The translations under genes were made by a program, and so were the position numbers. A model generated the notes under the pieces. That model saw nothing but the letters and a program-made list of their open reading frames with translations, had not been told where the DNA came from and did not search any database. Source: Gordonia sputi NBRC 100414 (GTDB taxonomy: Bacteria; Actinomycetota; Actinomycetes; Mycobacteriales; Mycobacteriaceae). Taken from it: a DNA stretch of 64,000 bases. Positions within the stretch are counted from its first letter, which is position 1. Each line of letters begins with the position of its first letter. The stretch covers positions 1 to 64,000 of the forward strand of contig NZ_BAFC01000083.1 of the NCBI RefSeq assembly GCF_000248055.1, read 5' to 3'. Below are positions 48,496 through 59,908 of the stretch, one piece after another.

Positions 48496-50214
48496 TCAGA
48501 ACAGGAAATAGCGTTGTGCCATGGGCAGTTCGGTGACGGGCGGCGCATCCCACACCTCGCCGTCGACGGTGACGGTGAACGTGTCCGGATCGACGGTGAT
48601 CTCCGGCCGCGCGTCGTTGTTGGTCATGTCGGCTTTTCCGATTCCGCGCGTGTCGGTGACCGGAACGAGTTTGCGTCGCACACCGATTCGCTCGGCGAGG
48701 TCGGGATCGCAGCCCGGTGCGACGAAACTGATCGACGTCGCGGCAGCCAACGGTGCGCTCGCCCCGAACATCGGACGCGGTAGTACCGGCTGCGGTGTGG
48801 GGATGGACGCGTTCGCGTCGCCCATCTGTGCCCACGCGATCGCGCCACCCTTGATGACGAGATCCGGTCGGACACCGAAGAATGCGGGATCCCAGAGCAC
48901 GAGGTCGGCGAGCTTACCCGTCTCCACCGACCCGATCTCGGAATCGAATCCGTGCGCGACGGCCGGGCAGATCGTGTACTTGGCGATGTAGCGCTGCGCG
49001 CGATTGTTGTCGGCTGCGCCGTCGCCCGGCAGTGATCCGCGTTTGCGTTTCATCACATGCGCGGTCTGCCAGGTACGCAACACCACCTCACCGATGCGAC
49101 CCATCGCCTGCGAATCCGAACCGATCATCGAGATCGCCCCGAGGTCGTGGAGCAGGTCCTCCGCGGCGATCGTCGACGGTCGGATACGACTCTCGGCGAA
49201 CGCGAGATCCTCGGGCACCGTCGGATTGAGGTGGTGGCAGACCATCAACATGTCGAGGTGCTCGTCGAGTGTGTTGACGGTGTGCGGGCGCGTCGGATTC
49301 GTCGAACTCGGAAGCACATTCGGAACCGATGCGACAGTGATGATGTCGGGTGCGTGCCCGCCTCCGGCGCCTTCGGTGTGATACGCGTGAATGCTGCGTC
49401 CGGCGATCGCACCGAGCGTCGACTCGACGAAGCCCGCCTCGTTGAGGGTGTCCGAGTGCAGGGCGACCTGCACCCCGGTCTCGTCGGCGACGCGCAGGCA
49501 CGCGTCGATCGCGGCGGGGGTACTCCCCCAGTCCTCGTGCAGTTTGAAGCCCGACGCACCCGCCCGGATCTGTTCGTGCATCGCCTCGGCACTCACGGTG
49601 TTGCCCTTGCCGAGCAGCGCGATGTTCATCGGCCAGCCGTCGGTGGCGGCGAGCATCGACGCGAGGTGCCACGAACCGGGCGACACCGTGGTCGCCTTAC
49701 TCCCCTCCGCCGGACCGGTGCCGCCGCCGATCAGCGTGGTGATGCCGTTGCCGAGCGCCTCGTCCATGATCTGCGGGCAGATGAAGTGGACGTGGCAGTC
49801 GATGGCGCCCGCGGTGAGGATCTTGCCGTTGCCCGCGATGATCTCGGTGGAGGCGCCGATAACCAGATCGGGATGGACACCGTCCATGGTGTCGGGGTTA
49901 CCCGCCTTGCCCAGCGCGACGATCCGGCCGTCGCGAATACCGACGTCCGCCTTGATGATTCCCCAGTGATCGAGGACGACCACACCGGTGATGACGGTGT
50001 CGGGAGCGCCGTCGGCGCGCGTGGCGCGACTCTGTCCCATCGACTCACGAATCACCTTGCCACCGCCGAAAACCGCTTCGTCGCCCGCGAGACCCGGTCC
50101 GCCGGAACGATCGTCGGTCACCTCGATGAGCAAGTCGGTGTCGGCGAGGCGAATTCGATCGCCGGTCGTCGGACCGAACAGCTGTGCGTAACGGTCGCGT
50201 CCCAGAATTGCCAT
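48496..50214 (-). CDS. ureC: Urease alpha (catalytic) subunit UreC
   Basis: A 572-residue nickel amidohydrolase that splits urea to ammonia and carbamate. The nickel ligands include His-x-His in [13 protein letters not shown], the carbamylated Lys in [15 protein letters not shown], and His residues in [13 protein letters not shown] and [16 protein letters not shown]. The flap catalytic His is in [16 protein letters not shown]. All active-site elements appear intact. The start is ATG 50214, 1 bp after the ureB stop codon. The upstream frame to 50262 lies in ureB. Confidence 0.98.
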
Positions 50215-51122: not shown

Positions 51123-52370
51123 TCACTCGTCGACGAGTGCACCGCCGGTGGCGCGCAACTGCGCGAGGCGGGTCACGGTGCACTGCGGAGCGATCGCGGT
51201 GACCTCGTCTTCGGTGAACGCACCTGCCGCCAACCCTCGGCCGACGACCAGCGCCAACGACATCGCGGTGGCCGGCTCGTCGACGACGTCGCCGCCTCGT
51301 CGCTCGAAATAGCTCTGCAGTCGGGTCACCGCGGTCGGCATCGCCGACCGGTAGAACCCGGTGACCGCGGCCCATCGGGTGATCAGATGCCCCGGATGCA
51401 TATCCCATCCCTGGTAGTAGCCGCGCTCGAGCGAGCGCAGCACCAGCGAGTGGTGACGCCGCAACGCGGCCGCGACCTGGGCGTCGTCGCCGGTCGGCAT
51501 GACCTGCGTCGAGCCGTCACTGAGCCAGACGCCGGTCTGCGCCGCCGCGGCCTGCATGACGTTCTTGGCGTGATCGGCGACCGGGTGCGCAAGCGACTGC
51601 TGAGCCGAGACGATTCCGCATGCTGCGCTGTAGTCGTAGGTGCCGTAGTGCAGGCCACTCAGCCGCGGGGCACCCCGATGCACCGCTTCGGCAACCGTTG
51701 CGCTCCCGTCCGGGCCAAGGATCGCCTGCGGGATCTCGATTTGCAGTTCGTATCGCAACGAGCCGACGGGCACGCCGTGGACGCGCTCGAACTCGGCGCA
51801 CAGCAGATTCACGGCGTCGACCTGCCGCACGTCGCGCAGCTTCGGCACCGTGAACACGAAACCGTCGGGGATACCGCCCGCGGCGTCGAGGACCAGTTCG
51901 AGCGTGCGCAGACCGCGGCTGCGCTCGACCGCTCCGAGTCCCTTGGCCCGCACACCCGCGGATCGAGGTGCGTGGGGTCGTTGGCGAGTCCAGGCGGCGA
52001 GGGTCTCGCCTGCCCGGCGGGCGTCGGCATCCTCGGTGGCGTCAGGACGCCATCCGTAACCGTCTTCGAGATCGATCCGCAGATCCTCGATCGGGTTGGT
52101 TCGTAACCGCTCGAGCGCGATTCCGACCACGTCGTCGTCCGCGAGTTCGCCGAGGACACCCGACGCAGCGTCGGCGATCCGGAGCGCCTCGTCACCCCAC
52201 GATTGCGGCGTCTGTTCGTCGACGTCTGCCGCGCTCACGTAGACGGTGTGCACCGGCTGCGGATCAGTCCGATCGCCGGGGTAGTGCGCCGCGAGATCGT
52301 CGTCGACCGGCGCGAGCAGCTCTTCGACCGAGCGCCGAACGTCGGCGCCCAACGTGTGCCGCGAGGTCAC
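51123..52370 (-). CDS. DUF6986 protein, aldolase/citrate-lyase-like TIM barrel
   Basis: A 415-residue protein related to the HpcH/HpaI and citrate-lyase beta superfamily. LRIDLEDGYGWRPDATEDADAR contains an acidic metal-binding pattern, and later YELQIEIPQAILGPDG and LSGLHYGTYDYSAACGI supply the conserved Glu and Asp seen in CoA-lyase barrels. A C-terminal helical part resembles that of malate synthase-like lyases. The reaction is unknown; the setting next to urease hints at nitrogen or ureide catabolism, as inference. The start is GTG 52370, overlapping the thioesterase stop (GTGA). In M. tuberculosis no gene lies between Rv1847 and ureA, so this is an insertion relative to that genome. Confidence 0.78.
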   Translation of the reverse strand: MTSRHTLGADVRRSVEELLAPVDDDLAAHYPGDRTDPQPVHTVYVSAADVDEQTPQSWGDEALRIADAASGVLGELADDDVVGIALERLRTNPIEDLRIDLEDGYGWRPDATEDADARRAGETLAAWTRQRPHAPRSAGVRAKGLGAVERSRGLRTLELVLDAAGGIPDGFVFTVPKLRDVRQVDAVNLLCAEFERVHGVPVGSLRYELQIEIPQAILGPDGSATVAEAVHRGAPRLSGLHYGTYDYSAACGIVSAQQSLAHPVADHAKNVMQAAAAQTGVWLSDGSTQVMPTGDDAQVAAALRRHHSLVLRSLERGYYQGWDMHPGHLITRWAAVTGFYRSAMPTAVTRLQSYFERRGGDVVDEPATAMSLALVVGRGLAAGAFTEDEVTAIAPQCTVTRLAQLRATGGALVDE

Positions 52371-52798
52371 GCGCCCGCAGGCATGTCGATGTTCTGGAGA
52401 CGCACCTGCGACGTGGCAAGCAGGCGACCTGCGTCGTCGGACATCTCGACACGCCATAGCTGCTGCCGGCGTCCGCGGTGAATGGGCGACGACTTTGCGG
52501 TGACGACGCCACTGCTGACCGAACGGAGGAAGTCGGTGTTGTTGTTGACGCCGACCGCGGTCTGACCCGGCCCCTGCTTGGACAGCCACACGAAGCCACT
52601 GGTGCTGGCAACGCTTTCGGCGATCGCGCAGTAGATACCGCCGTGCACGATGCCGAACGGCTGGTGATGTCGCGAATCGATCTCCAAGGTCGCGGTGACC
52701 GCGCCGTCGTCGTCGATGTCGGTGATCTGCAGGCCGAGCAGGGCGTCGAGACCCTTGCCCGCGAACTTCGAAAAATTGTCCGTGTCGTCAACAGTCAT
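52367..52798 (-). CDS. PaaI-type hotdog thioesterase (Rv1847 homologue)
   Basis: A 143-residue hotdog-fold protein. The active-site motif is DSRHHQPFGIVHGGIYCAIAES, where HGG-x-x-x-x-x-x-E is the PaaI pattern; GVNNNTDFLRSV is the expected strand of the second half. It probably hydrolyses an aromatic or short acyl-CoA. The start is ATG 52798. In position it matches M. tuberculosis Rv1847, which likewise lies between blaI and ureA. It is translationally coupled to the DUF6986 gene. A strong hairpin and an iron box lie just upstream (see the sRNA entry). Confidence 0.87.
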   Translation of the reverse strand: MTVDDTDNFSKFAGKGLDALLGLQITDIDDDGAVTATLEIDSRHHQPFGIVHGGIYCAIAESVASTSGFVWLSKQGPGQTAVGVNNNTDFLRSVSSGVVTAKSSPIHRGRRQQLWRVEMSDDAGRLLATSQVRLQNIDMPAGA

Positions 52799-52864
52799 GC
52801 GAACAAGAGTGTCACGACTCACGTGGCCGAGCATCGCTGGCCCTGTGGACATCCCCGGGAACCA

Positions 52865-52900
52865 GTAAGCCCCACATCCCGTTGGGGATGTGGGGCTTAC
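52865..52900 (-). terminator. Terminator hairpin of the MrsI-like sRNA
   Basis: The 16-bp arms at 52865-52880 and 52885-52900 pair perfectly around a 4-base loop. In a gap between divergent genes it cannot terminate either flanking mRNA, which supports a separate short transcript. Confidence 0.7.
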
Positions 52901-52956
52901 CGCGACGTGGACCGGGGGTCTCTGCAGCCCTCAGGACTCTCGCGCGGTCCGACGTT
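52865..52956 (-). ncRNA. mrsI: Probable iron-regulated small RNA, MrsI-like
   Basis: On the minus strand a TTGACA -35 (52987-52992) is spaced 18 bp from a TACGTT -10 (52963-52968), giving a start near 52956. A perfect 16-bp hairpin with a CAAC loop (52865-52900) would end the RNA after about 92 bases. A DtxR/IdeR-type iron box overlaps the -10 and spacer. MrsI (ncRv11846) of M. tuberculosis is an IdeR-controlled sRNA of the iron-sparing response placed between the same two neighbours, blaI (Rv1846c) and Rv1847. Position, orientation, regulator site and size all agree, though I could not align sequences. There is no open frame inside. Confidence 0.7.
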
Positions 52957-52962
52957 GTGATT

Positions 52963-52981
52963 AACGTAGGCTAGCCTTACC
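52963..52981. promoter_or_regulatory. Iron box (IdeR/DtxR-type) at the sRNA promoter
   Basis: The site holds the perfect 10-bp palindrome AGGCTAGCCT (52968-52977) with matching flanks. By hand alignment about 13 of 19 positions agree with the consensus TTAGGTTAGGCTAACCTAA. It overlaps the sRNA -10 element, as expected for repression when iron is plentiful. Confidence 0.6.
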
Positions 52982-53050
52982 AACATTGTCAAGGCACCCC
53001 GCGGGACAAGTTGGCCCCGGCGTCGAGCAAGTAGAGGAAACGGCAGTAAA

Positions 53051-53449
53051 ATGCGAAAGATGAACGGATTGGGCGATCTGGAGCGTGCGGTGATGGACTC
53101 CCTTTGGGAGAGTCCCACGCCTCAGACGGTTCGCCAGGTCCACGCGGATCTATCCCGCGACCGCTCGCTGGCCTACACCACGGTGATGACCGTGCTGCAG
53201 CGTCTGGCGAAGAAGAACCTGGTCACGCAGATCCGCGAGGACAGAGCCCACAAGTACGTTCCCACCCATCCACGCGAAGACCTCGTGGCGTCGTTGATGG
53301 TCGATGCGCTCAGCGAAGCGCACGCCCCCGGCTCTCGGCACGCGGCCCTCGTCAGCTTTGTCGGTCGAGTAGGCGCCGACGAAGCCGCCGCGCTGCGTCG
53401 TGCGCTCGATGAGCTCGAAGCAGCCCGCGGTACTCAAGAGACCAGCTAG
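53051..53449 (+). CDS. blaI: BlaI/MecI/CopY family repressor (Rv1846c homologue)
   Basis: A 132-residue winged-helix repressor: LGDLERAVMDSLWESPTPQTVRQVHADL, then LAYTTVMTVLQRLAKKNLVTQIREDRAHKYVPTHPRED, the BlaI DNA-binding domain with wing. A short C-terminal helix pair dimerises. In M. tuberculosis BlaI represses blaC and other genes and is cleaved or released on beta-lactam exposure through its M56 partner, which here follows 100 bp downstream. The start is ATG 53051 or the in-frame ATG 53060; AGAGGA lies at 53033-53038. The gap to the M56 gene is strikingly AT-rich and could hold a BlaI site. Confidence 0.92.
   Translation: MRKMNGLGDLERAVMDSLWESPTPQTVRQVHADLSRDRSLAYTTVMTVLQRLAKKNLVTQIREDRAHKYVPTHPREDLVASLMVDALSEAHAPGSRHAALVSFVGRVGADEAAALRRALDELEAARGTQETS

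Positions 53450-58359: not shown

Positions 58360-59908
<1,549 letters not shown>

Follow-up and report, generated by a model that had tools for sequence, protein, structure and literature searches.

What does the gap between blaI and the gene of an Rv1847-like thioesterase encode in Gordonia sputi? In the first 64,000 nts of contig NZ_BAFC01000083.1 of strain NBRC 100414 (the window, i.e., the whole stretch of DNA that was analysed), the initial annotation placed in this gap a small RNA (sRNA) resembling MrsI (ncRv11846) of Mycobacterium tuberculosis, for which Gerrick et al. 2018 (PNAS) is reportedly the source study. The comparative analysis presented here argues strongly that the locus encodes a MrsI-family sRNA, which would be controlled by IdeR, would pair by loop-loop contact with the leader of the aconitase (acn) mRNA and would spare iron. 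The data also lean, with less assurance, towards a wider proposal, in which the sRNA loop and one acn hairpin, or two in tandem in most Gordonia, form a family-wide co-evolving switch whose parts are kept matched and lost together, aconitase rather than bacterioferritin being the ancestral target.

In the proposed mechanism, iron-loaded IdeR would bind a box lying over the promoter and keep it off when iron is plentiful. When iron is low, the RNA would be made up to a strong terminal hairpin, and its constant loop AGGGCUG, displayed on a stem, would contact the CAGCCC loops of the acn leader, one of which lies just upstream of the Shine-Dalgarno sequence in G. sputi. Pairing would then reduce aconitase synthesis, either by blocking ribosome entry or by mRNA decay, and iron would be spared for essential proteins.

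The predicted fold of the RNA reaches -57.2 kcal/mol (z = -6.67, with 0 of 200 shuffles equally stable), a large share of this stability being contributed by the terminator hairpin. In an alignment of 46 diverse sequences, 96.4% of the cells pair and two-sided changes are found at 21 of the 28 pairs, while covarying cells number 151 against 37.5 in shuffles, a value reached by none of 500 shuffles. The terminator stem turns over freely (two-sided changes at 15 of 15 pairs). Changes in the seed stem are rare but paired: CUG/CAG is replaced by CCG/CGG in three loci (L443, L455 and L456) and by CAG/CUG in another (L460), and GUUU/AAAC is found in L459. GGGCUG is invariant across the 46 rows, and the loop A is replaced by U in L038 alone. 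Because the search patterns contained the loop, its constancy in pattern-found rows is partly by construction; the fair test is provided by the 20 loci chosen by model match alone, all of which carry AGGGCUG. As regards the conservation of seed and hairpin in relatives, for which the initial annotation had called, the seed loop is constant and the stems covary. It is barely credible that the locus is simply an IdeR-controlled promoter and a palindromic terminator between two genes, without any regulatory RNA. In favour of this explanation, the Gordonia transcript is a predicted one; against it, the core and loop are conserved family-wide with stem covariation and the M. tuberculosis counterpart is expressed, according to the accessible parts of the papers on it.

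The signals around the RNA agree with those initially described. On the minus strand, TTGACA and TACGTT are separated by 18 bp, the -10 hexamer agreeing with TATAAT at only 3 of 6 positions, and a generic promoter scan reported no promoter at the locus. An IdeR/DtxR box overlapping this promoter had been claimed; scored against a 19-bp sequence which we take to be the IdeR consensus, two overlapping registers (52961-52979 and 52966-52984) are the only sites with 14 of 19 matches in the window. Under the same presumed consensus, 13 or more of the 19 positions match upstream of the core in 59 of 59 core-bearing loci, compared with 7 of 1180 segments produced by simple letter shuffles, which is consistent with control by IdeR. 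Transcription from this promoter would yield an RNA of about 94 nts, close to the 92 first estimated. Its terminal stem of 18 bp (52902-52885 with 52880-52863, closed by the loop 52884-52881) includes one G-U pair and contains the 16 internal Watson-Crick pairs that had been reported as a perfect 16-bp hairpin. U-less terminators are usual among M. tuberculosis sRNAs, according to the part of a review that was accessible (PMC11188477).

A covariance-model search showed that the RNA is widespread. The GTDB family to which G. sputi belongs is represented by 401 genomes, 327 of which have a BlaI relative, and among 70 family loci read around blaI the core GTCCTG[A/T]GGGCTGCAG is present in 59 and absent from that place in 11. 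A model built from 36 sequences (R1), applied with strict filters and giving a few weak matches that are possibly due to chance, finds the RNA in 311 of the 401 genomes and 24 of the 31 genera (E <= 0.01); at E <= 0.001, it matches 218 of 248 Mycobacterium genomes. An order-wide sample of 249 genomes, own family included, gave 57 R1 matches, 36 in the family and 21 outside; the latter are all weak (at most 38.1 bits, E >= 3e-4) and were taken, unread, as chance hairpin matches. The exact core pattern was found in at least 116 named stretches among the matches listed, which belong to Mycobacterium, Mycolicibacterium, Mycobacteroides, Mycolicibacillus, Gordonia, Williamsia, Nocardia and Rhodococcus, with one metagenome-assembled genome named only as an actinomycete. 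Hence, the claim that the sRNA extends outside Mycobacterium was, if anything, understated.

Divergent copies exist as well. A second model (R2) detected one at low score in genome G025 (L467), in which loop and box are kept, and the copy of G036, weak in the R1 search, retains box and core on reading. In a reduced Mycobacterium genome of 3.3 Mb (G669, L466), the loop is kept while stem, box and terminator look decayed by eye. On a tree of 43 aconitase proteins, the presence of MrsI requires 7 changes, at least 5 of which are forced by supported branches, a hint of repeated loss; the tree is used only as a hint because it departs from genus lines, the Gordonia and Mycobacterium rows being split.

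The 86 named loci flanked by more than 700 nts on each side comprise 55 with blaI as well as the thioesterase gene, 30 with the thioesterase gene only, one with blaI only and none with neither (63, 44, 5 and 4, respectively, over all 116 listed stretches), so that the steady neighbour is the thioesterase rather than blaI. This arrangement bears on the possibility that, instead of acting freely in trans, the RNA serves chiefly as a 5′ leader or attenuator for the thioesterase gene. In 85 of the 86 flanked loci, including the 30 without a nearby blaI relative, this gene follows the RNA in the same orientation, and the lack of a U-run after the hairpin makes read-through plausible. However, the conserved parts of the RNA are the apical loop and the seed stem, the acn loops match the seed, and the part of PMC11188477 that was accessible presents MrsI as an RNA of 100 nts that is encoded in trans and has a predicted terminator. 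A role primarily as a leader is therefore regarded as quite improbable, and a trans-acting MrsI-family RNA is preferred.

A partner for the constant loop is found in the acn leader. In G. sputi, this leader contains two hairpins, CCCGGC-GCAGCCC-GTCGGG and, about 100 nts downstream, GCCGAC-GCAGCCC-GTCGGC, the latter directly before GAGGAG. Both display CAGCCC, the complement of the MrsI loop, and both form in the predicted folds of this leader and of a relative (L345). The loop duplex has a predicted energy of -10.3 kcal/mol, and a CGGCCC variant would still pair via G-U (-9.6 kcal/mol). Strict CAGCCC hairpins number 61 in 12,220 nts of Gordonia acn leaders compared with 7 in 413,118 nts of other Gordonia loci, and there is one in the window, both strands counted. 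Two or more hairpins are found in 38 of 47 Gordonia acn leaders under a lenient rule; under the strict rule, one or more are present in 40 of the 47 and two or more in 21. The stem of the hairpin nearer to acn was aligned from 49 of 80 hairpins, all chosen by the hairpin rule and sharing one loop spacing; it contains 21 covarying cells compared with 7.5 in shuffles (0 of 500), the percentage paired being biased because of this choice of rows. The acn leader is thus a strong candidate for the pairing site of the MrsI loop, and the match suggests how these bacteria may spare iron.

The RNA and the acn hairpin are also partly lost together. A rule demanding a stem of at least 4 bp and a loop of at most 9 nts containing CAGCCC or CGGCCC was applied to 127 leaders, and such a hairpin was found in 89 of 98 MrsI-positive, 7 of 26 MrsI-negative and 3 of 3 unlabelled leaders (G817, G819 and G820), compared with 343 of 6350 shuffled leaders; these counts are not independent because the rows are related. 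Gordonia accounts for 44 of the 98 MrsI-positive leaders, and 46 of the remaining 54 have the hairpin. The G-U-compatible CGGCCC loop occurs in 4 of the 89. In seven MrsI-negative mycobacteria, the acn loop reads CGGACCC and the predicted duplex falls to -5.8 kcal/mol. As to the labels, G017 and G034 were set MrsI-negative despite weak R1 matches (the R2 matches of G017 show no core), G025 was set positive from the reading of its locus, and R2 was additionally run on 22 of the 26 negatives (all but G713, G676, G701 and G674). Excluded from the acn counts were G014 and G035 as well as second acn copies and the mycobacterial G667, G620 and G187. Four MrsI-negative leaders were counted as having the hairpin although, by eye, the CAGCCC hit lies within the coding start (G701 and G669) or the CGGCCC hit lies far upstream (G060 and G013).

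Two further observations concern acn. Of 13 Mycobacterium genomes in which MrsI was not matched, 10 carry two full aconitase genes (G312, G157, G246, G285, G663, G676, G713, G187, G667 and G620), and in the same search 15 MrsI-positive Mycobacterium genomes gave one gene above the cut-off each. In two genomes of genus 22 (G022 and G048, tentatively assigned to Nocardia by resemblance), the RNA is located about 7-11 kb from the acn gene on the same contig.

The acn hairpins might instead be protein-binding sites, e.g., for apo-aconitase in the role of an iron regulatory protein, the match with the MrsI loop being coincidental. Nearly invariant acn loops are indeed what a protein site would show. 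On the other hand, so few MrsI-negative leaders contain the hairpin, though all those genomes have aconitase, and the loops combine a 6-nt complementarity to a known seed loop with a G-U-compatible variant. Protein binding is thus rather unlikely to be the explanation, and pairing with the MrsI loop remains the favoured one.

According to the accessible parts of reviews, bfrA, hypF and fprA are targets of MrsI. In mycobacteria, bfrA is the validated and main target. CAGCCCT was found in 6 of the 30 bfr loci shown (genera g29, g10 and g19; one of them, L247, is not aligned to its start), and one Mycobacterium bfr leader (L234) has 11 nts of complementarity to the RNA. Two other Gordonia of the bfr panel gave no bfr match. 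A seed scan returned matches on genes named by eye as radical SAM (mycofactocin-type), WhiB-like and Rieske-type oxygenase, none of which recurs across four genomes, and the radical SAM gene was dropped as a target, its motif being only scattered among 30 relatives. Any further targets of the Gordonia RNA would be putative.

Several observations weigh against an acn-pairing MrsI in Gordonia. No U-run follows the terminator stem, and a generic scan reported no U-tailed terminator at the locus. The minimum-energy fold of L370, one of two Gordonia relatives folded, contains only one acn hairpin. Two-sided changes affect 3 pairs of the acn stem, a number that does not exceed that of shuffles (338 of 500). 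Nine MrsI-positive leaders lack a hairpin under the rule, and G031 has the acn hairpin with no RNA found. Seed complements near gene starts are not enriched over the reversed pattern, neither in genome G000 (11 against 10) nor in four Gordonia genomes (35 against 41). Finally, CAGCCC is absent from the bfr leader of G. sputi (L241) and from that of another Gordonia (L251), the two leaders examined, and bfr was not supported as a Gordonia target. The initial view of an iron-sparing regulator is supported, by comparative inference, as regards the IdeR-like box and a conserved complementary site in acn, and not as regards a visible bfr site in these two leaders.

Features of the MrsI-family locus of G. 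sputi (positions in the window)
Feature	Position	Strand	Basis
-35 hexamer TTGACA	52987..52992	-	sequence; TTGAC in most aligned Gordonia relatives (by eye)
-10 hexamer TACGTT	52963..52968	-	sequence; TACATT in most Gordonia relatives; under threshold of generic scan
IdeR/DtxR-like box, two overlapping 19-bp registers over the promoter	52961..52984		14/19 in each register, presumed consensus
MrsI-family small RNA, about 94 nts (predicted)	52863..52956	-	covariance model match 52863-52953, 101.5 bits, this sequence itself being among those used to build the model; fold; 5′ end placed from the promoter
Seed stem-loop GGACCG...GUCCUGAGGGCUGCAGAGAC...CGGUCC	52909..52950	-	covariation in 46 sequences
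7-nt apical loop AGGGCUG, proposed seed	52925..52931	-	in all model-picked loci; complement present in hairpin loops of the acn leader
18-bp terminator-like hairpin without U-run	52863..52902	-	sequence; two-sided changes among relatives
Rv1847-like hotdog thioesterase, co-directional and downstream of the RNA	52367..52798	-	open reading frame; family name by eye and from the initial annotation
BlaI-family repressor, divergent	53051..53449	+	open reading frame; relatives

The two genes bordering the gap are divergent, as initially reported, and are those that flank MrsI. The thioesterase reading frame as listed opens at 52852, but the ATG at 52798, about 65 nts from the hairpin, is taken as the likelier start. 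Elsewhere in the window, an IdeR-like site with 13 of 19 matches was observed at 58361, between genes named by eye as glycosyltransferase-like and guanosine/IMP dehydrogenase-like. In addition, the Rfam family 5_ureB_sRNA matches positions 49761-50052 on the plus strand (42.3 bits, cut-off 40), antisense to a gene named by eye as the urease alpha subunit; this match probably scores conserved coding sequence instead of an RNA.

The accessible literature presents MrsI as an RNA of mycobacteria; in the present analysis, it characterises the majority of genera in an entire bacterial family. Searches on MrsI and actinobacterial iron sRNAs, and on these together with aconitase or loop-loop pairing, returned no report of MrsI outside Mycobacterium or of the acn paired-loop site (PMC6689984, PMC9410917, PMC7308464, PMC8600241 and PMC8583896, each in part), subscription papers being mostly outside their scope. 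As far as these searches show, a MrsI-family RNA is new for Gordonia and the family is much wider than Mycobacterium. The loop hardly varies and its partner is recognisable in acn leader sequences, which offers a pairing site that can be tested in laboratory relatives, and lineages apparently without the RNA provide natural controls. No Rfam 15 family matches the sRNA locus at the gathering threshold, and the covariance model can be used for annotation.

Membership of the Gordonia element in the MrsI family is supported because the mycobacterial loci share its core and loop, the covariation of its stems, its IdeR-like box and its neighbours. The comparison with published MrsI was made by location and described features, and with other named Mycobacterium loci, the H37Rv RNA sequence itself being outside it. 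MrsI likewise lies in the gap between blaI and Rv1847, with an IdeR promoter box, a length of about 100 nts, a terminal hairpin and, in the accessible parts of reviews, a 7-nt apical loop and a seed of 6 to 8 nts (PMC11188477, PMC12101431). In contrast to the mycobacterial loci that were read, the Gordonia locus has a variant IdeR box and a different terminator stem sequence; unlike in MrsI, the bfr leader of G. sputi is without a seed complement, and the acn leader has two loop hairpins in most Gordonia. In the part of PMC9410917 that was accessible, aconitase mRNA is named as a target of MrsI among other iron-sparing RNAs. RyhB, PrrF, FsrA and IsrR are likewise described there as iron-responsive RNAs with a presumed repressive effect on iron-using enzymes, aconitase among them, and no synteny or sequence is shared among them and MrsI. 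They differ from the present RNA in that its seed would be a structured loop, in a group where M. tuberculosis is said to lack Hfq (PMC9410917). The control of mRNAs by aconitase through iron regulatory proteins and iron-responsive elements similarly involves a hairpin loop in an iron-linked mRNA, with the difference that the proposed partner here would be an RNA loop rather than apo-aconitase.
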